Positions 27,428-64,000 of a stretch of DNA of 64,000 nt are shown here, in pieces (the stretch's first letter is position 1; each line of letters begins with the position of its first letter). Below the pieces are notes generated by a model. That model made no database searches. It was not told where the DNA came from and worked only from the letters and a program-made list of their open reading frames with translations. The translations under genes and the position numbers were made by a program. Source of the stretch: Lysobacter concretionis Ko07 = DSM 16239 (lineage in GTDB: Bacteria; Pseudomonadota; Gammaproteobacteria; Xanthomonadales; Xanthomonadaceae). The DNA is taken from assembly GCF_000768345.1 (NCBI RefSeq), contig NZ_AVPS01000008.1, forward strand, positions 1-64,000, written 5' to 3'.

Positions 27428-27443
27428 TCGCGGGGTTTTTGTC

Positions 27444-27499
27444 GGAGCGACGTAAGTCGCGACCCGGAACGATATGGACGTCGCGACTGACGTCGCTCC
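27444..27499. repeat. REP doublet (REPIN), GGAGCGACGT family
   Basis: GGAGCGACGTAAGTCGCGA at 27444-27462 faces TCGCGACTGACGTCGCTCC at 27481-27499. The arms differ only at the A/C in their centre. It lies between tsaD and folB. Other copies in the window are at 30073-30145, 58323-58395 and 61812-61904. Confidence 0.85.
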
Positions 27500-27556
27500 C
27501 ACAAGGGCAAGACTCTTCTGAGCAAGGGCATCCATCAACGAGGCACCGGAATCGCA

Positions 27557-30060: not shown

Positions 30061-30145
30061 GTAGGAGCGACTGTAGGAGCGACGTGAGTCGCGAAGCTGC
30101 GAATTTCGGACACGATGGCCAGGTCGCGACTGACGTCGCTCCTAC
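30061..30145. repeat. REP doublet (REPIN) with extra half arm
   Basis: A 22-base arm at 30073-30094 (core GGAGCGACGTGAGTCGCGA) faces its near complement at 30124-30145. A truncated extra copy of the left arm (GTAGGAGCGACT) precedes it at 30061-30072. It fills part of the convergent gap between the small membrane protein and the pteridine reductase gene. Confidence 0.85.
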
Positions 30146-30233
30146 ATAGAGCGTGGTGGCGGTGATCGTTACCGTAAGGAACGGCGTCAGCCGCGAGCGC
30201 GCAGCGACCGCGCTCAAGGGCGCAGGCGCGACC

Positions 30234-56965: not shown

Positions 56966-58133
56966 CGGGCCGCGGCAGTTGCCGGGAGGGTTTGCCGGAC
57001 GTCCTGCCTGCTGGCTTCGCGACCACTTTTTTTCCAGCGGTCTTGGCGGGTGGCGTGGCGGCGATGTTCTGGGCGCGGCGCGCGGCGAGTTTCCCGGCGG
57101 CGCCGGCGACCTCCTCTTCCAGCTTGAGGTAGTTGGCGAAACGCCGCGGGTCGAGTTTCCCGCCTTCGATCGCGGCACGGATCGCGCAACCGGGCTCCTG
57201 CGCGTGCCGGCAGTCGCGGAACCGGCAGTGCGCGGCCAGTGCCTCGATGTCGCTGAAGTTTTCGGCGACATCCTCCTCGCCGGTCGGTTTCAGCTCGCGC
57301 ATGCCGGGGGTGTCGATCAGGCAGGCGCCAGTGGGCAACGGGATCAGCGCGCGGTGGGTGGTGGTGTGGCGGCCGCGTTCGTCGCTCTCGCGCACCGCGC
57401 CGGTTTTCATGCGCTCGTGGCCGAGCAGGGTGTTGGTCAGCGTCGACTTGCCCGCGCCCGAGCTGCCGACCAGCACCGCGGTGGTGCCCGGGCGCAGCCA
57501 CGGATCAAGCGCGGCGACGCTGTCGGGATCGCGTGCATTGACCGCGCGTATCGCGACGTCCTGCGCCGCCAGATCGATCAGCGCTTCCAGCGAGCCGGCC
57601 ACGTTTTCGGCTTCGTCGGCCTTGGTCAACACCACCACGGGTTCCGCGCCGCTGCCGCTGACCAGCAACAGATAGCGCTCGATCCGGCGCGGGTTGAAGT
57701 CCGCATCCAGCCCGCAGACCACGAACACGGTGTCGACGTTGGCCGCGATCAGCTGCTGGCTGTAATGCTCGCCGGCGGCGCCGCGCTTGATCGCGCTGCG
57801 GCGCGGCAGCAGGGCGACGATCTGGTCCGGGGTGTTGACGGTGCCGGCCGGTGCCGGCTCCACCAGCACCCAGTCGCCGACCCCGGCGCGCTGCTCGGCC
57901 GGGGTCGCGCCCTTTTTGTAGCTCGGTGCCCGCTGCCATTCCGGGGGCGACTCCACCGGCGAGCTGTGGTCCGGCCCGTCGGCGACGACGTAGCCGCTGC
58001 GGTGCTGTTCGACCACCCGCGCCGGATGCGCGGCGGGGAAGCGGGCCAGCATCTCGCGCCATTCCGCCACCGCCGGCCGGCCGTCGTCGTCAAGCGGCCA
58101 GCCAATCGCCTGCAGGGCGCGGTCGGGGTTCAC
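56943..58133 (-). CDS. rsgA: Small ribosomal subunit biogenesis GTPase RsgA
   Basis: This circularly permuted GTPase helps mature the 30S decoding centre. The 396-residue protein has an N-terminal OB fold, then G4 VLTKADEAEN (about 215), G1 GSSGAGKSTL (about 272), G3 DTPGMRELK (about 325) and the zinc knuckle CRFRDCRHAQEPGC (about 350). A Lys/Pro/Ala-rich tail of about 45 residues ends in acidic DDDYGED. The start is GTG at 58133 (VNPDRALQAIGWPL); the frame upstream is in repeat DNA. No strong ribosome site is visible. It overlaps the QEGLA gene. Confidence 0.92.
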   Translation of the reverse strand: MNPDRALQAIGWPLDDDGRPAVAEWREMLARFPAAHPARVVEQHRSGYVVADGPDHSSPVESPPEWQRAPSYKKGATPAEQRAGVGDWVLVEPAPAGTVNTPDQIVALLPRRSAIKRGAAGEHYSQQLIAANVDTVFVVCGLDADFNPRRIERYLLLVSGSGAEPVVVLTKADEAENVAGSLEALIDLAAQDVAIRAVNARDPDSVAALDPWLRPGTTAVLVGSSGAGKSTLTNTLLGHERMKTGAVRESDERGRHTTTHRALIPLPTGACLIDTPGMRELKPTGEEDVAENFSDIEALAAHCRFRDCRHAQEPGCAIRAAIEGGKLDPRRFANYLKLEEEVAGAAGKLAARRAQNIAATPPAKTAGKKVVAKPAGRTSGKPSRQLPRPDDDYGED

Positions 58134-58216
58134 GGAGCGTGCTGGAATCGGGGCATGGCGCGATTCTACATAGCGGACGGGTGCCTGCTTCCGGTCCAAC
58201 GGGGACTTCCCTGGTC

Positions 58217-58286
58217 GCAGGAGCGGCTTTGGCCGCGATCGGGAATCGTTCGCCCGCGCCAACTCCCGATCGCGGCTGAAGCCGCC
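58217..58286. repeat. REP doublet, GGAGCGGCTTTGGCCGCGA family
   Basis: The left arm 58217-58244 (GGAGCGGCTTTGGCCGCGAT core) and the right arm 58264-58286 (TCCCGATCGCGGCTGAAGCC) are imperfect complements; each arm is a hairpin of its own. It is a relative of, but distinct from, the GGAGCGACGT family. Confidence 0.75.
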
Positions 58287-58322
58287 CTGCACGCGAGCCA
58301 AACACCCTGCAACGTGCTCCCG

Positions 58323-58395
58323 GCAGGAGCGACGTGAGTCGCGACAGCACGGCGAAATCGGATGCCAGTGCATTCGCGACTCACGTCGCTCCTGC
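58323..58395. repeat. REP doublet (REPIN), GGAGCGACGT family
   Basis: This is a perfect 22-base inverted repeat: 58323-58344 (core GGAGCGACGTGAGTCGCGA) and 58374-58395. It is 94 bases upstream of the alaA start. Confidence 0.88.
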
Positions 58396-58488
58396 AGAAA
58401 AGTGCGTGCCGTTTGATAAGGACAGTTACTCCTACAACCGCCCGGGAATCGGCTAGGCTTCGTTTTTCCCCCTATTCTGCCCGCCCCG

Positions 58489-59787
58489 ATGTCTCCTGCC
58501 CGCCTGAAAACCCGTGCCCGCCTGTCGGAAGTCCGTTATGAAATCCGCGGTGAGCTCGCCCGCCGGGCGCGGGAGCTGGAGGCCCAGGGCCGCACGCTGA
58601 TCAAGCTCAACATCGGCAACCCGGGCGCGTTCGGTTTCCGCGCGCCGGCGCACCTGCAGCGCGCGATCGCCGGGCGGATCGCCGACACCGACCCCTACAC
58701 CCACCAGCAGGGACTGCCGGCTGCGCGCGAGGCGATCGCCGCCTTCCATCGCGGGCGCGGCACGCCGCAGGCATCGGCGGAACGGGTGTTCATCGGCAAT
58801 GGCGTCAGCGAGCTGATCGACCTGTCGCTGCGCGCGTTGCTGAACCCCGGCGACGAGGTGCTGCTGCCGTCGCCCGACTACCCGTTGTGGTCGGCGGCCA
58901 CCATCCTCAACGACGGCCGGCCGGTGTATTACCGCTGCGCACCCGAGCACTCCTCCTCAGGGCAGGGTTTCCTGCCCGACCCGGTGGAGATCGAGGCGCT
59001 GGTGTCGCCGCGCACCCGCGCGATCGTGCTGATCAACCCCAACAACCCGACCGGCGCGACCTACCCGCGCGCGCTGCTGGAGCAGATCGTCGCCATCGCC
59101 CGCCGGCACGGCCTGCTGCTGATGTGCGACGAGATCTACGATTCGATCCTGTACGACGGGGCGACGTTCGAGCCGGTCGCGCCCCTGGCCGGCGACCTGC
59201 CGTGCCTGTCGTTCGGCGGACTGTCCAAGGTCCACCGCGCCTGCGGCTGGCGGGTCGGCTGGGCGGTGCTGTCGGGCGATCCCGCCGCGAGCGCCGACTT
59301 CCACCACGCGATGGACCTGCTGGGCGCGCTGCGGCTGTGCGCGAACGTGCCGGGCCAGTTCGCGATCGACGCCGCGCTGCATGGCGAGGACACCATTACC
59401 GCGCTGTGCGCCCCCGGCGGCCGGCTGCACGAGGCGCGGCGGGTGGTGGTGGAGGCAATCAAGGCCAGCGCGCACCTGCAACTGGTGGCCCCCGCCGGCG
59501 CGCTGTACGCGTTCCCGGCGGTGACCGGCATCGCCGCCCGCGGTTTCGACGACCACGCCTTCGCGCTGGAGCTGCTGGAAACCGAGGATGTGCTGGTGGT
59601 GCCGGGTTCCAGCTTCAACGTGCCGTACCGCAACCACTTCCGGGTCACCCTGCTGCCGCAGCCGGAGCAACTGGCCGAAGTGTTCCGGCGGATCGAGCGG
59701 GTGCTGGACCGGGTCGCCGAGCGTGCGACCGGACTCGCCGCCGCAAGTTCGCCGGAACCTGCGACCGCTGCAGTCGCGGTGGCCTGA
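58489..59787 (+). CDS. alaA: PLP-dependent aminotransferase, AlaA type
   Basis: This fold-type I aminotransferase probably interconverts pyruvate/glutamate and alanine/2-oxoglutarate. The 432-residue protein carries KLNIGNPGAFGF, YTHQQGLPAAREAIA, GNGVSELIDL, the PLP-binding INPNNPTGATYP (about 182), CDEIYDSILYDG (about 216) and the catalytic lysine in SFGGLSKVHRACGWRVGW (about 250), with the AlaA-like FNVPYRNHFRVTLLP at the end. The ATG at 58489 has no strong ribosome site. A low-complexity Ala/Thr tail ends the protein. The GDSL hydrolase gene starts one base after its stop. Confidence 0.92.
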   Translation: MSPARLKTRARLSEVRYEIRGELARRARELEAQGRTLIKLNIGNPGAFGFRAPAHLQRAIAGRIADTDPYTHQQGLPAAREAIAAFHRGRGTPQASAERVFIGNGVSELIDLSLRALLNPGDEVLLPSPDYPLWSAATILNDGRPVYYRCAPEHSSSGQGFLPDPVEIEALVSPRTRAIVLINPNNPTGATYPRALLEQIVAIARRHGLLLMCDEIYDSILYDGATFEPVAPLAGDLPCLSFGGLSKVHRACGWRVGWAVLSGDPAASADFHHAMDLLGALRLCANVPGQFAIDAALHGEDTITALCAPGGRLHEARRVVVEAIKASAHLQLVAPAGALYAFPAVTGIAARGFDDHAFALELLETEDVLVVPGSSFNVPYRNHFRVTLLPQPEQLAEVFRRIERVLDRVAERATGLAAASSPEPATAAVAVA

Positions 59788-59788
59788 G

Positions 59789-60466
59789 ATGGCCGCGATG
59801 CGCTGGCTCGCGCTGGGCGACAGCTACACCATCGGCGAGGGCGTGGCCGAAACCGCGCGCTGGCCGGTGCGGCTGGCCGCGCAGCTGCGTCATGCGGGGA
59901 TCGACATCGCGGACCCGCGCATCATCGCCACCACCGGCTGGACCACCGACGAGCTGTCCAGCGCGATGGACGCCGCCGAGCCGCTGGGCCGCTGGGACCT
60001 GGTGAGCCTGCTGATCGGCGTCAACAACCAGTACCGCGGCCGCAGCGTGGCCGACTACCGGGGCGAGTTCCACGGCCTGCTGCGCCGTGCGATCGCGCTC
60101 GCCGGCCAGCGTGCCGACCGCGTGCTGGTGCTGTCGATACCCGACTGGGGCGTGACCCCGTTTGCGGCCGCGCAAGGTCGCGACCGCGCGCTGATCGCGC
60201 ATGAGCTGGACGCCTACAACGCCACCGCCGCGGAATTGTGCAGCGTGCACGGCGTGGCCTTCGTCGACATCACGCCGGTCAGCCGCGCACACGGCGGCGA
60301 GCCCGCGATGCTGGTCGACGACGGCCTGCACCCGTCCGCGTCACTGTATGCGCTGTGGGCGGAGCAGGCGTTGCCGGTGGTTCGCGGACTGCTGGCGGGA
60401 GCGTCGGCAAACGCGCCGGCAAACGCGCCGGCCGGCATGCGCCAGCCCGGCGGCGACATCCGCTGA
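59789..60466 (+). CDS. SGNH/GDSL family hydrolase
   Basis: This 225-residue cytoplasmic-looking esterase has block I LGDSYTIGEGV (nucleophile Ser, about 11), block III LIGVNNQYRG (Asn, about 77) and block V DDGLHPSASLY (Asp/His, about 188). No signal peptide is present. Members hydrolyse short acyl esters; the natural substrate is not readable. The start overlaps the alaA region almost directly (one base between stop and ATG); a second ATG at 59798 is also possible. The C terminus includes two 12-bp units coding ANAP. Confidence 0.88.
   Translation: MAAMRWLALGDSYTIGEGVAETARWPVRLAAQLRHAGIDIADPRIIATTGWTTDELSSAMDAAEPLGRWDLVSLLIGVNNQYRGRSVADYRGEFHGLLRRAIALAGQRADRVLVLSIPDWGVTPFAAAQGRDRALIAHELDAYNATAAELCSVHGVAFVDITPVSRAHGGEPAMLVDDGLHPSASLYALWAEQALPVVRGLLAGASANAPANAPAGMRQPGGDIR
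60406..60429 (+). repeat. Two tandem 12-bp units in GDSL gene 3' end
   Basis: GGCAAACGCGCC occurs twice in tandem (60406-60417 and 60418-60429), coding ANAP-type residues just before the end of the gene. Confidence 0.8.
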
Positions 60467-60494
60467 TGGATCCAGCCGCGCTGGCGCTGCATTG

Positions 60495-61193
60495 ATGGAG
60501 GCGACAACGCGTCCGATGTCGCCGGAAAGCGCGCACGGGATTGCCGCCGCATTCGCATCGGCAGGCCGGTTCGGCAAGGGCTGGGATTACCACTACGCCC
60601 GCAGCAAGTTGCTCAGCGATCCGCTGTACCCCGGCGTCTGCGCGGCGCTGCAGGGCAGCCAGCCGCCGCTGCTCGACCTGGGCTGTGGCCTGGGCCTGCT
60701 GGCTCACGCCCTGCGCGCCGATGGCAGCGGGCTGGCCTACCGCGGCGTCGACAACGACGCCGGCAAGATCGAACGCGCGCGCCATGCATCGCGACGGCGG
60801 GAGCTGCTCGACACCCGTTTCGAGTGCATCGACCTGGCCCGCGGACTGCCCGCGCACCAAGGCAGTGTGGCGATCCTCGATGTCCTGCAATTCCTCGATG
60901 CCGATGCCCAGCAACGCACCCTGGACGCGGCCATCGCGATGCTGACGCCGGGCGCGCGGCTGGTGATCCGTACCGGTCTGGACGATGGCAGCCGCCGCGC
61001 GCGCCTTACCCGCGCGGTCGATGTGTTCTCGCGCCTGATCGGCTGGATGAATGCCGGGCCGCGCCGTTACCCCGACCCCGACGCATTGCGCGGGCGTTTC
61101 GCCGCCGCCGGCCTGCACAGCCGGTTCACCCCGCTGCACGGCAGAACCCCGTTCAACAACTGGCTGGTGGTCGCGACCCGGCCGGATCAGTAG
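60495..61193 (+). CDS. Class I SAM-dependent methyltransferase
   Basis: This 232-residue protein has a Rossmann-fold methyltransferase core: DLGCGLGLLAHAL (motif I, about 60), YRGVDNDAGKIERAR (about 82), CIDLARGLP (about 113), AILDVLQFLDADAQ (about 123) and LVIRTGLDD. The N-terminal part WDYHYARSKLLSDPLYPGV resembles lipid- or polyketide-linked methyltransferases of small size. It follows the GDSL gene by 28 bases. The substrate is unknown; an acyl or quinone-like acceptor would be speculation. Confidence 0.85.
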   Translation: MEATTRPMSPESAHGIAAAFASAGRFGKGWDYHYARSKLLSDPLYPGVCAALQGSQPPLLDLGCGLGLLAHALRADGSGLAYRGVDNDAGKIERARHASRRRELLDTRFECIDLARGLPAHQGSVAILDVLQFLDADAQQRTLDAAIAMLTPGARLVIRTGLDDGSRRARLTRAVDVFSRLIGWMNAGPRRYPDPDALRGRFAAAGLHSRFTPLHGRTPFNNWLVVATRPDQ

Positions 61194-61264
61194 CGGCGGG
61201 CGCGCGCGTCAGTCCAGAGCCAGTCACAGCGAGCAGTCATCGTCAGCCCGTCACAGCGAGCCGG

Positions 61265-61738
61265 TCACAGCCAGCGCGCGTCCCAGAACGGGTAATCGCC
61301 GACCCGCTCCACCAGTCCCGCGCGCACCGGGTTCATGACCAGATAGCGGGCGGCGTGGATCAAGGCTTCGTCCTCGCGGATGGCGCGGTCGTGATAGCCC
61401 GTCGCCCATGTCCGTTCCAGTGCGGGGTTTGCCTGCCGGGCGTGCCGGCTGGTGTTCGACTTGATCCGTTGCACCAGCGACGGAAGGTAGTCCAGATCGC
61501 CCAGCCTGATCAGCCCATGCCAGTGATCCGGCATCACGACCCACGCGAGCAGCTCCGAGGACACCCACAGGCGGCGGTCGATCAGTGCCCGTGCTACCGC
61601 GCTCGCGCAGTCGGGATCCTTGAAAAGGGTGAGCCGCGCGAAGGTGGTGAACGTGACGAGGTAAACCTGATGGGTTACCGAAGCCCGCCCGCGCCGCAAT
61701 GCAGCGTGGCCTCGGCGAACGGGAGACAATGCGCTCAT
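61265..61738 (-). CDS. REP-associated tyrosine transposase (RAYT)
   Basis: This 157-residue HUH (Y1) family single-strand DNA nuclease binds and nicks REP hairpins. The HUH motif reads VMPDHWHGL (about 79-87), and the catalytic tyrosine is likely in AARYLVMNPVRAGLVERVGDYP (about 131). The GYHDRAIREDEAL segment is typical of the RAYT group. The ATG at 61738 is the best start after upstream alternatives lacking conserved sequence. A perfect REP doublet lies 74 bases upstream at 61812-61904, and three more doublets of the family are in the window. RAYTs lack independent transposition evidence and appear domesticated. Confidence 0.88.
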   Translation of the reverse strand: MSALSPVRRGHAALRRGRASVTHQVYLVTFTTFARLTLFKDPDCASAVARALIDRRLWVSSELLAWVVMPDHWHGLIRLGDLDYLPSLVQRIKSNTSRHARQANPALERTWATGYHDRAIREDEALIHAARYLVMNPVRAGLVERVGDYPFWDARWL

Positions 61739-61811
61739 GCCACGAGGGTGCGTGCCCCCGAGTTGCGGAAACATCGGGATTGGCCCCGGCGTCGCATCGG
61801 ATAACCCTGCG

Positions 61812-61904
61812 CGTTCGCGACTGACGTCGCTCCTACCAAGCGCTTGGTTACGTTTTGTCCGACTGGACCAGCCTCGATCGTAGGAGCGACGTCAGTCGCG
61901 AACG
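61812..61904. repeat. REP doublet (REPIN) next to RAYT
   Basis: This perfect 25-base inverted repeat has arms at 61812-61836 and 61880-61904 (core GGAGCGACGTCAGTCGCGA) and a 43-base spacer. It has the longest perfect arms in the window and lies directly upstream of the transposase gene. Confidence 0.9.
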
Positions 61905-62134
61905 CCCAGAACCTCAATGTGCGACCGGCTCACGACCGTTCCTGGACGAGCCGGCCCAGACCGCCTGTCGGAAGCGCCGCCGGGCCGTCCCTCCGCTTTG
62001 TCGGGCCCACTCCGCGGATTGCGGCGGATGCCGCCCCATACGCCGCCCCACGGTCGCGTCGCCGTGACCCCGGTCAGCCGTCCATCGCACCCGCGCGGTA
62101 GAATCGGCCGCATCGATCCCACCTGTTCACGAGG

Positions 62135-62152
62135 CGCGGCCACGGGGCCGCG
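62135..62152 (+). promoter_or_regulatory. GC hairpin immediately before aceE start
   Basis: CGCGGCC (62135-62141) and GGCCGCG (62146-62152) form a 7-bp stem with loop ACGG. A GAGGCGC repeat flanks it on both sides; the right copy runs into the ATG at 62159 and includes the only ribosome-site-like GAGG. A translation-level effect is possible. Confidence 0.35.
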
Positions 62153-62158
62153 AGGCGC

Positions 62159-64000
62159 ATGACCCATACATACGAAAGCCCGCTCAACGAGCTGATGCAC
62201 AACGATCCGGACCCGACCGAGACCCGGGAGTGGATCGAGTCCGTCGAGGCCGTCATCCAGCGCGACGGCACCGACCGTGCGCACCAGCTGCTCGAGCGCA
62301 TGGTGGAGGTCTCGCGCCGCGCCGGCGCGCACCTGCCGTTCGAGCCGACCACCGATTACATCAACACCATCCCGCCGCACCTGGAGGCCAAGAGCCCCGG
62401 CGATGCCGCGATGGAATGGCGCATCCGCTCGATCATCCGCTGGAACGCGATGGCGATGGTGGTGCGGGCCAACCGCAAGCCCGGCGACCTGGGCGGCCAC
62501 ATCGCCACCTTCGGCTCCTCGGCGACGCTGTACGACGTCGGCTTCAACCACTTCTGGCGTGCCCCGAGCGACGACCACCCGGGCGACCTGCTGTTCATCC
62601 AGGGCCACGGCTCGCCGGGCATCTACGCCCGCTCGTTCCTCGAAGGCCGCATCAGCGAGGACCAGCTCGACCACTTCCGCATGGAAGTCGATGGCCGCGG
62701 CATCAGCTCCTACCCGCACCCGTGGCTGATGCCGGACTACTGGCAGACCCCGACCGTGTCGATGGGCCTGGGTCCGATCAGCGCGATCTACCAGGCGCGC
62801 AACTTCAAGTACCTGGAAGGCCGCGGCCTGATGCCGAAGACCGACCGCAAGGTCTGGTGCTTCCTCGGCGACGGCGAGACCGACGAGCCCGAATCCCTCG
62901 GCGCGATCTCGGTCGCCGGCCGCGAGGGCCTCGACAACCTGGTGTTCGTCATCAACTGCAACCTGCAGCGCCTTGACGGCCCGGTGCGCGGCAACGGCAA
63001 GATTATCCAGGAGCTGGAAGGCCAGTTCCGCGGCGCCGGCTGGAACGTCATCAAGAACGTCTGGGGCAGCTACTGGGATCCGTTGCTGGCCCGTGACAGC
63101 AGCGGCAAGCTGCGCCAGCTGATGATGGAAACCGTCGACGGCGAGTACCAGAACTGCAAGGCCTTCGGCGGCGCGTACACCCGCGAGCATTTCTTCGGCA
63201 AGTACCCGGAGACCGCCGAGCTGGTCGCCAACCTGTCCGACGAGGACGTCTGGCGCCTCAACCGCGGCGGCCACGACCCGCACAAGGTCTACGCCAGCTA
63301 CCACCAGGCGGTGAACACCAAGGGCATGCCGACCGTGATCCTGGCCAAGACGGTCAAGGGCTACGGCATGGGCGTGGCGGGCGAGTCGCTGAACCCGGCC
63401 CACGGCACCAAGAAGATGGATGACGATGACGTGCGCGCGTTCCGCGACCGCTTCAACATCCCGGTGACCGACGACCAGCTCAAGGACAGCGCGGTGCCGT
63501 TCTACCACCCCGGCAAGGACTCGCCGGAGATCGAATACCTGCTCGAGCGCCGCAAGGCCCTCGGCGGCTTCCTGCCGCAGCGCCGCCGCAAGGCCACCCA
63601 GCAGCTCGAAGTGCCGCCGCTGGCGACCTACGAGCGCCTGCTCAAGTCCACCGGCGAGCGCGAGATCAGCACCACGATGGCGTTCGTGCAGATGCTCAAC
63701 ATCTCCCTGCGCGACAAGCTGGTCGGCCCGCGGCTGGTACCGATCGTCGCCGACGAGGCGCGCACCTTCGGCATGGAAGGCCTGTTCCGGCAGATCGGCA
63801 TCTACGCCCCGTTCGGCCAGAAGTACAAGCCGGTCGACCGCGACCAGCTGATGTACTACCGCGAGGACACCGCCGGGCAGGTGCTGCAGGAAGGCATCAC
63901 CGAGGCCGGCGCGTTCGCCTCCTGGCTCGCCTGCGCCACCAGCTACAGCAGCAACGACCTCGCCCTGCTGCCGTTCTACATCTACTACTCGATGTTCGGT
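62159..64000 (+). CDS. aceE: Pyruvate dehydrogenase E1 component, homodimeric type (5' part)
   Basis: This is the thiamine-diphosphate E1 of the pyruvate dehydrogenase complex, which decarboxylates pyruvate and loads acetyl onto E2. The 614 codons present run off the window end; full homologues are near 890 residues. Visible landmarks are LNELMHNDPDPTETREW at the start, HIATFGSSATLYDVGFNHF (about 120), the TPP/Mg motif FLGDGETDEPES (about 238) with NCNLQRLDGPVRG, GVAGESLNPAHGTKKM (about 405), and PIVADEARTFGMEGLF near 530. The ATG at 62159 matches the family N terminus. The E2 and E3 genes are expected beyond the window. Confidence 0.96.
   Translation, partial: MTHTYESPLNELMHNDPDPTETREWIESVEAVIQRDGTDRAHQLLERMVEVSRRAGAHLPFEPTTDYINTIPPHLEAKSPGDAAMEWRIRSIIRWNAMAMVVRANRKPGDLGGHIATFGSSATLYDVGFNHFWRAPSDDHPGDLLFIQGHGSPGIYARSFLEGRISEDQLDHFRMEVDGRGISSYPHPWLMPDYWQTPTVSMGLGPISAIYQARNFKYLEGRGLMPKTDRKVWCFLGDGETDEPESLGAISVAGREGLDNLVFVINCNLQRLDGPVRGNGKIIQELEGQFRGAGWNVIKNVWGSYWDPLLARDSSGKLRQLMMETVDGEYQNCKAFGGAYTREHFFGKYPETAELVANLSDEDVWRLNRGGHDPHKVYASYHQAVNTKGMPTVILAKTVKGYGMGVAGESLNPAHGTKKMDDDDVRAFRDRFNIPVTDDQLKDSAVPFYHPGKDSPEIEYLLERRKALGGFLPQRRRKATQQLEVPPLATYERLLKSTGEREISTTMAFVQMLNISLRDKLVGPRLVPIVADEARTFGMEGLFRQIGIYAPFGQKYKPVDRDQLMYYREDTAGQVLQEGITEAGAFASWLACATSYSSNDLALLPFYIYYSMFG

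Follow-up and report, generated by a model that had tools for sequence, protein, structure and literature searches.

The RAYT locus and its REP sequences

The window, meaning the whole stretch of 64,000 nucleotides analysed here, contains a gene for a REP-associated tyrosine transposase (RAYT) together with four doublets of a short repeat (REP), one of them beside the gene. The features are listed below, with the coordinates of the window.

27441..27502, unstranded: convergent REP doublet, 37 nt start to start, with GTCG and GTGG tetranucleotides
30073..30145, unstranded: canonical 73-bp REPIN
30175..30196, + strand: decayed REP-like copy with three mismatches, adjoining the REPIN at 30073..30145
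58323..58395, unstranded: 73-bp REPIN with GCAG heads
60495..61193, + strand: gene which we take to be SAM-methyltransferase-like, convergent with the RAYT and also its neighbour in four sister species with dead RAYTs
61265..61774, - strand: RAYT (TnpA-REP), 169 aa, from the ORF list, family models and fold; single copy
61331..61345, - strand: codons of Y144...N148 (catalytic Tyr and metal-ligand Asn of the Y---NP signature), placed by alignment
61517..61525, - strand: codons of the HUH motif H84-W-H86, placed by the 40-RAYT alignment with coordinates by arithmetic from the ORF
61815..61836, - strand: REP upstream of the RAYT and in its orientation, GTAGGAGCGACGTCAGTCGCGA
61880..61901, + strand: second RAYT-linked REP in the opposite orientation, its GTAG end inward (divergent pair)
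62159..64000, + strand: gene presumed to be aceE (pyruvate dehydrogenase E1), running off the window; marker of the conserved RAYT site

The identification of the gene as a RAYT is well supported by family models and fold. The protein matches Pfam Y1_Tnp (4.9e-9) and scores 122.3 bits against the NCBIfam model for REP-associated tyrosine transposases (cut-off 80), and its closest solved structure by sequence is 4er8, a TnpA-REP (6.3e-8). The same structure ranked first (E 1.6e-9, TMq 0.62), ahead of the ISDra2 and IS608 transposases, when the predicted fold was searched with Foldseek; this AlphaFold2 model was built from 40 sequences and has a mean pLDDT of 85, with residues 1-29, within which Met13 is a possible alternative start, falling below 50. 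In an alignment of 40 RAYTs, comprising the window protein and 39 of 80 relatives, 26 columns are invariant and these include H84, H86, Y144 and N148. The tyrosine aligns with that of E. coli TnpA-REP, and the Y---NP signature given in PMC6006769 fits Y144 and N148. Among the matches listed, the closest named RAYT is that of Pseudoxanthomonas yeongjuensis (55% identity). The original prediction of a single-copy HUH nuclease gene was borne out, the 3.03-Mb genome matching Y1_Tnp once and REP_Tyr_transpos once. The gene product thus combines a Y1 HUH fold, the HUH motif, the tyrosine and the Y---NP signature, and the gene is flanked, on its 5' side only, by a REP class that is repeated genome-wide. 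Three short direct repeats resembling AGCCAGTCACAGCGAGC lie at 61218-61275, downstream of the RAYT end and overlapping it, and similar letters also flank tandem REPs at locus L085. A promoter and terminator scan of 61150-62200 found nothing, and Rfam gave no match at 57000-64000.

The REP core, GGAGCGACGTNAGTCGCGA, is present in eight window copies, all of them without mismatch in a search that allowed two; 100 dinucleotide shuffles of the window gave a mean of 0.02 copies and a maximum of 1. The perfect inverted repeat predicted beside the RAYT is real, its length being 26 nt rather than 25 (61811-61836 against 61880-61905, with 43 nt between the arms), and the three other predicted doublets with the same core were recovered in place without mismatch. 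These three are convergent (+ then -, heads outside), whereas the RAYT-linked REPs run - then + with the GTAG heads inside and lie 68 nt apart, start to start. Because of this divergent arrangement and spacing the RAYT-linked doublet is a REP pair and not a REPIN. The REPIN/RAYT layout that had been proposed therefore holds for the RAYT and its REP/REPIN population, on the evidence of models, fold, counts and presence or absence in the genus, and fails for the doublet beside the gene. Each of the four doublets folds much better than shuffled sequence (z -8.2 to -10.2). By a crude codon-bias rule, the doublet at 27441..27502 lies within a gene-like ORF and the REPIN at 58323..58395 overlaps the 5' part of another.

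Three loop centres had been reported among the window doublets, with C on both RAYT-linked arms, and this is as seen (A/C, G/C, G/G and C/C for the doublets at 27444, 30076, 58326 and 61815), but the centre is no marker of a RAYT-linked class. The third loop base is G in 51, C in 31, A in 25 and T in 1 of 108 exact genomic copies, and both arms share the same centre in 13 of 21 exact convergent pairs (expected 36%, p = 0.014). In SELEX and cleavage tests on TnpA-Mb (PMC8266576), loop bases 12, 13 and 15 proved important and base 14 free. The variable centre corresponds to this free position, so that by analogy the three centres would look like expected drift. A role for the centres as class tags was rejected, the position being free in a related RAYT and G being the commonest base.

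The genome-wide count foreseen in the original prediction gave 116 exact copies of GGAGCGACGTNAGTCGCGA, often arranged as 73-bp inverted doublets, and no copy of a reversed control pattern. In the 108 copies examined in context, in stretches chosen around exact matches, the preceding triplet is GTA in 92 cases and GCA in 14, and the extended consensus reads GTAG-GA-GCGAC-GTNA-GTCGC-GA. Gene-like ORFs, called by the same crude rule, cover about 80% of these stretches, though 88 of the 108 copies lie outside them. When up to three mismatches were allowed the stretches held 166 matches (108 exact, 27 with one mismatch, 12 with two and 19 with three, the last partly belonging to a second REP class). 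This second class, GGAGCGGCTTCAGCCGCGA, accounts for 10 of the 166 and has 30 exact copies in the genome. Under the same limit, and with the second class included, there are 85 neighbour pairs at most 160 nt apart, of which 61 are convergent, 17 divergent and 7 same-sense; 31 of the convergent pairs are spaced 47-49 nt start to start, 48 nt being the spacing of a 73-bp REPIN, and a second cluster falls at 97-139 nt. The genome-wide doublets accordingly have the inverted REPs, near-fixed spacing, hairpin, high copy number and extragenic position of REPINs, and the single REP has the GTAG, two-base spacer and short perfect stem (GTAG-GA-GCGAC) of group 3 / subclass 2.5 REPs. An outer flank resembling TCCGACTGGACTTCCTTCGGTCGTAGG recurs at several REPs of the window genome (for example at 61858-61882 of the window), so that a longer composite repeat may include some of the copies. 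In two other genomes the repeats show a strand bias in contig coordinates, perhaps linked to replication (G228, 32 forward and 10 reverse; G023, 16 and 2).

RAYT and repeats in the genus and family

Ten genomes of the genus were compared. All four with an intact RAYT, scoring above the model cut-off, carry exact repeats (116 in the window genome G000, 140 in G002, 89 in G006 and 92 in G009) and all six without one carry none, namely G001, G003, G004 and G007, in which the RAYT is dead, and G005 and G008, in which genome searches gave no RAYT match. This association (Fisher p = 0.005, uncorrected for kinship) agrees with the expectation that genomes lacking the RAYT would also lack the repeats. 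With GTAG added to the pattern and up to three mismatches allowed, the counts are 208, 200, 182 and 387 against 0, 0, 0, 0, 1 and 2. This relaxed pattern takes in the second class of REP, the TTCA class, which has three differences, and the large G009 figure is therefore mostly TTCA class, of which that genome has 273 exact copies. No exact copy of the TTCA class is present in G008 or in any of the four dead-RAYT genomes, and G005 has one. A strict hairpin search of the six genomes, within 20 kb of where the RAYT is dead or missing, revealed no REP remnants.

The window genome groups with the four dead-RAYT species in aceE, rsgA and outgroup-rooted DnaG trees (support 98-100). By plain identity of the aminotransferase neighbour gene it is nearer to G002 and G006 (86%) than to the dead-RAYT four (81%), because those four evolve faster in this gene. 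The pairing of G002 with G006 has a support of 100 in DnaG, rsgA and aceE plus DnaG, 88 in aceE, and 84 and 53 in two further genes; a methyltransferase tree pairs G006 with G009 instead (59). Deeper forks are weak. Since the outgroups G011 and G016 also carry the repeat (24 and 63 copies), two losses, one in the dead clade and one in G005/G008, are the simplest reading, and the contrast within the genus counts as about two independent events of loss, not as ten independent genomes.

The start of aceE is present in all ten genomes and in eight of them a RAYT lies divergently beside it. A wider survey covered 128 RAYT loci, made up of a family sample of 48 (the best match per genome) and 80 named RAYTs. 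The fetched flank contains aceE in 24 of the 48 family loci, drawn from genera g1, g3, g8, g15, g21, g24 and g42. All 24 have the RAYT 5' of aceE, 20 of them in divergent orientation and four (G262, G216, G292, G321) on the strand of aceE. The aceE flank is thus an old, re-used RAYT site across seven genera. In a RAYT tree made by a quick method, in which 16 of 52 forks are weak, the RAYTs of G000, G002 and G009 fall with those of g15 (lineage A), and those of G006 and the dead clade, the latter a long branch, fall with TTCA-flanked RAYTs of g32 and other RAYTs (lineage B). As the species tree groups G002 with G006, and G000 with the dead clade, either the site has switched RAYT type two or more times or the lines have lost different members of an ancient tandem pair.

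The class of REP beside the best RAYT was read in 31 genomes, 27 of them scorable, and three classes were compared. In 24 of the 27 the flanking class is the commonest in the genome (the misses being G006, G009 and G011), against a mean of 11.5 agreements after label shuffling (p about 1e-5, uncorrected for kinship and for the best RAYT per genome only). By hand count, 42 of 45 family genomes with at least ten window-class copies have a RAYT at E <= 1e-30, the three exceptions being G020, G240 and G201, the last 76% complete. Two further genomes are rich in the TTCA class, G208 with 60 copies and no RAYT match and G346 with 113 copies and a best E of 5.5e-6. The RAYT of G006, at the same aceE site, is of another subtype and is flanked by GCGGC-TTCA-GCCGC REPs. 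Both G006 and G009 carry both repeat classes and one REP-flanked RAYT each, and the non-cognate class is the larger (89 against 70 copies in G006, 273 against 92 in G009). In G009 the TTCA class is this abundant although REPs of the other class flank its sole RAYT match. The original prediction had named as evidence against itself repeats that are equally common in relatives without this type of RAYT. G006 partly provides such evidence, with its 89 exact copies although its RAYT is of the other subtype, but the six genomes without an intact RAYT have none. A strict pairing of RAYT and repeat therefore has some counter-cases, in G006 and in the repeat-bearing family genomes without a close RAYT.

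The reading that we prefer, with a probability of roughly 0.9, is that of a vertically kept, single-copy RAYT nuclease with REP/REPIN repeats that it spread in the past and is probably still spreading at a low rate. It draws on the identity and fold of the protein, on its active-site residues, on the number, spacing and extragenic bias of the repeats, on the tie between RAYT and repeat in the genus and on the class match in most scored relatives; recognition, cleavage, copying, present activity and any benefit to the host would follow by analogy with published relatives. By that analogy, the REP as single-stranded DNA would fold as GA-GCGAC-GTNA-GTCGC after GTAG, the RAYT would recognise GTAG, the stem and loop bases 1, 2 and 4, Tyr144 would cut at a nearby CT or CA, and the 73-bp inverted pair would be copied elsewhere by the RAYT.

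It is rather unlikely, if well short of negligible, that the window RAYT is now inactive and that the repeats are relics of the past, perhaps left by two RAYT subtypes alternating at aceE. Such a history would account for two repeat classes in genomes with one REP-flanked RAYT, for the conflict between the RAYT tree (lineages A and B) and the species tree and for the decayed copies among the 166 matches, those with three mismatches being partly of the other class. The active-site residues are intact, however, and 108 of the 166 matches are exact, though in stretches chosen around exact matches. That the repeats are instead selected host sites (terminators, nucleoid or gyrase sites), with the RAYT playing no causal role in their number, appears improbable. 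Within the genus, the genomes without the repeats are precisely those with a dead RAYT or none, the class found beside the RAYT is the commonest in 24 of 27 scorable genomes, and 61150-62200 holds no terminator-like site, against which stand the extragenic bias, the repeat-rich genomes G208 and G346 and the role of REPs/BIMEs as binding sites in other species, as described in PMC2817692. An ordinary IS200/IS605 insertion sequence with end hairpins, which would share the HUH Y1 superfamily and the Foldseek matches to ISDra2 and IS608, is hardly credible for a single-copy gene that keeps the same aceE site in seven genera and scores a weak 22.5 bits with the IS200 model (cut-off 55) against 122 with the RAYT model.

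Catalytically dead RAYTs in sister species

The syntenic RAYTs at aceE in G001, G003, G004 and G007 (loci L214, L212, L213 and L215) have open frames, and in all four Tyr is replaced by Arg and Asn by Thr. The HUH motif reads RWH, GWQ and CWQ in three of them and is kept as HWH in G003. The residues H-H-Y-N are otherwise kept in 121 of the 128 surveyed loci, the seven exceptions being these four and three further genomes. G352 (L029) has Tyr changed to His, 190 repeats and three RAYT matches; G137 (L226) has both Tyr and Asn changed to His, 54 TTCA copies and two RAYT matches; G340 (L241) reads S-H-S-Q and has no copies of the window class, four of the TTCA class and two RAYT matches. For Pseudomonas and Stenotrophomonas PMC3686654 describes orphan REP classes, RAYT pseudogenes and syntenic RAYTs whose REP class has switched, and models a slow decay of repeats after loss of the RAYT. 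G352, G137 and G340, each with further RAYT matches, would fit as stages of such a decay.

Constraint on the dead RAYTs was estimated by simple counting methods on four sequences. In the RAYT-homologous part dN/dS is 0.17-0.23 in the four deep pairs, 0.33 in G001-G007 and about 0.64-0.65 in G003-G004, the last being indistinguishable from neutral (p = 0.35), and the neighbour genes of the same pairs give 0.03-0.34. Variable sites at the three codon positions number 27, 14 and 46 of 118 each (position 3 against 1+2, p = 1.4e-5), with no constraint in the first 45 or so codons (16, 21 and 13 of 37). Non-synonymous changes make up 46 of 97 over the whole tree (p <= 1.6e-5) and 39 of 70 on the end branches (p <= 0.018), in both cases below neutral expectations that allowed for various degrees of transition bias and various base compositions, with hand-derived totals; a recount by site gave 48 of 101 and 43 of 77. 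Residues that are invariant in live RAYTs are kept in all four dead ones at 17 of 22 non-catalytic positions as against 0 of 4 catalytic positions (p = 0.008). The non-catalytic residues not kept throughout the four are Arg27, Arg30, Arg47, Asp129 and Val80, the position of Val80 being Leu in three live relatives also. As the change from Tyr to Arg is common to the clade, constraint within the clade postdates it, unless the change occurred more than once.

An antisense gene as the cause of the low dN/dS is the less likely explanation. Of the frames compared, that of the RAYT gives the lowest value in five of the six pairs, and no other is free of stops in all four sequences, although one antisense frame comes near it (0.27-0.65) and in G003-G004 two antisense frames (0.43 and 0.48) are lower than the RAYT frame (about 0.65). 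A 48-residue C-terminal extension of the dead RAYTs was considered as a new domain and rejected, because it overlaps, in antisense, the 3' end of the methyltransferase gene, whose coding can explain its constraint.

Our tentative reading of these loci, which we hold at slightly less than an even chance, is that of a second stage of RAYT domestication. The catalytic Tyr and Asn would have been lost in the ancestor of the four species and the HUH motif eroded separately in three, neither of the searched REP classes being found, and purifying selection would have kept the core, which presumably serves as a regulatory or nucleic-acid-binding protein that does not cut, at an old aceE site where two deep RAYT lineages followed each other. 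Purifying selection on the core is suggested by four sequences that lie outside the window. In one open-access library, covered mostly through titles and abstract openings, no RAYT without catalytic residues and under purifying selection was found, and the dead but constrained RAYT is a new lead. If true, it would show the protein to be useful for something besides DNA cleavage. The exact function of RAYTs is described as unknown in PMC8049555, and a single genus with the same RAYT intact with repeats, dead without them or absent without them provides a natural comparison for asking why bacteria retain these genes for so long.

Comparison with known systems

The system of the window is an ordinary, well-supported RAYT/REPIN of known kind. 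It resembles the Group 3 TnpA-REP/REPtron Mb of Marinomonas sp. MWYL1 (PMC8266576) in its GTAG, two-base spacer, 5-bp stem and 4-base loop, and in both systems the third loop base is free or variable and the HUH enzyme has a single Tyr. Loop base 12, a G in the window REP, is T in Mb, whose cleavage activity dropped sharply with G12 (PMC8266576), and the specificity of the window RAYT should by this analogy differ from that of Mb. GA between head and palindrome is shared with the GT(A/G)G-GA-palindrome REPs of Xanthomonas and Pseudomonas, and the start GTAGGAGCG is common to the window REP and that of X. campestris (PMC2817692), although stem and loop differ and the repeats form doublets here and large clusters there. 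The REPINs of P. fluorescens SBW25 (PMC3116915) are likewise extragenic inverted doublets forming a hairpin around a short middle, with REPs beside the RAYT; SBW25 however has three RAYTs in place of one, and the RAYT-adjacent pair is divergent in the window. TnpA-Y1 subclass 2.5 (PMC6006769) is similar in its Xanthomonad and Pseudomonad hosts and in its short REPs, in some of which the tetranucleotide lies 1-2 nt from the stem. The table for that subclass gives the motifs DH[LF]H and YI[VI]ANP, whereas the window RAYT has DHWH and YLVMNP and was therefore filed only as a RAYT with group-3-like REPs rather than under subclass 2.5. The ‘orthoswitch’ orthogroups of Pseudomonas and Stenotrophomonas (PMC3686654) offer a parallel for the genus as a whole, with syntenic RAYTs that have different REP classes, orphan REPs and RAYT inactivation. 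In the genus studied here, by contrast, the RAYT gene itself seems to have been exchanged between two deep lineages, and inactivation takes the form of active-site loss in an open and apparently constrained frame, where the available text of PMC3686654 reports frameshift or nonsense mutations.
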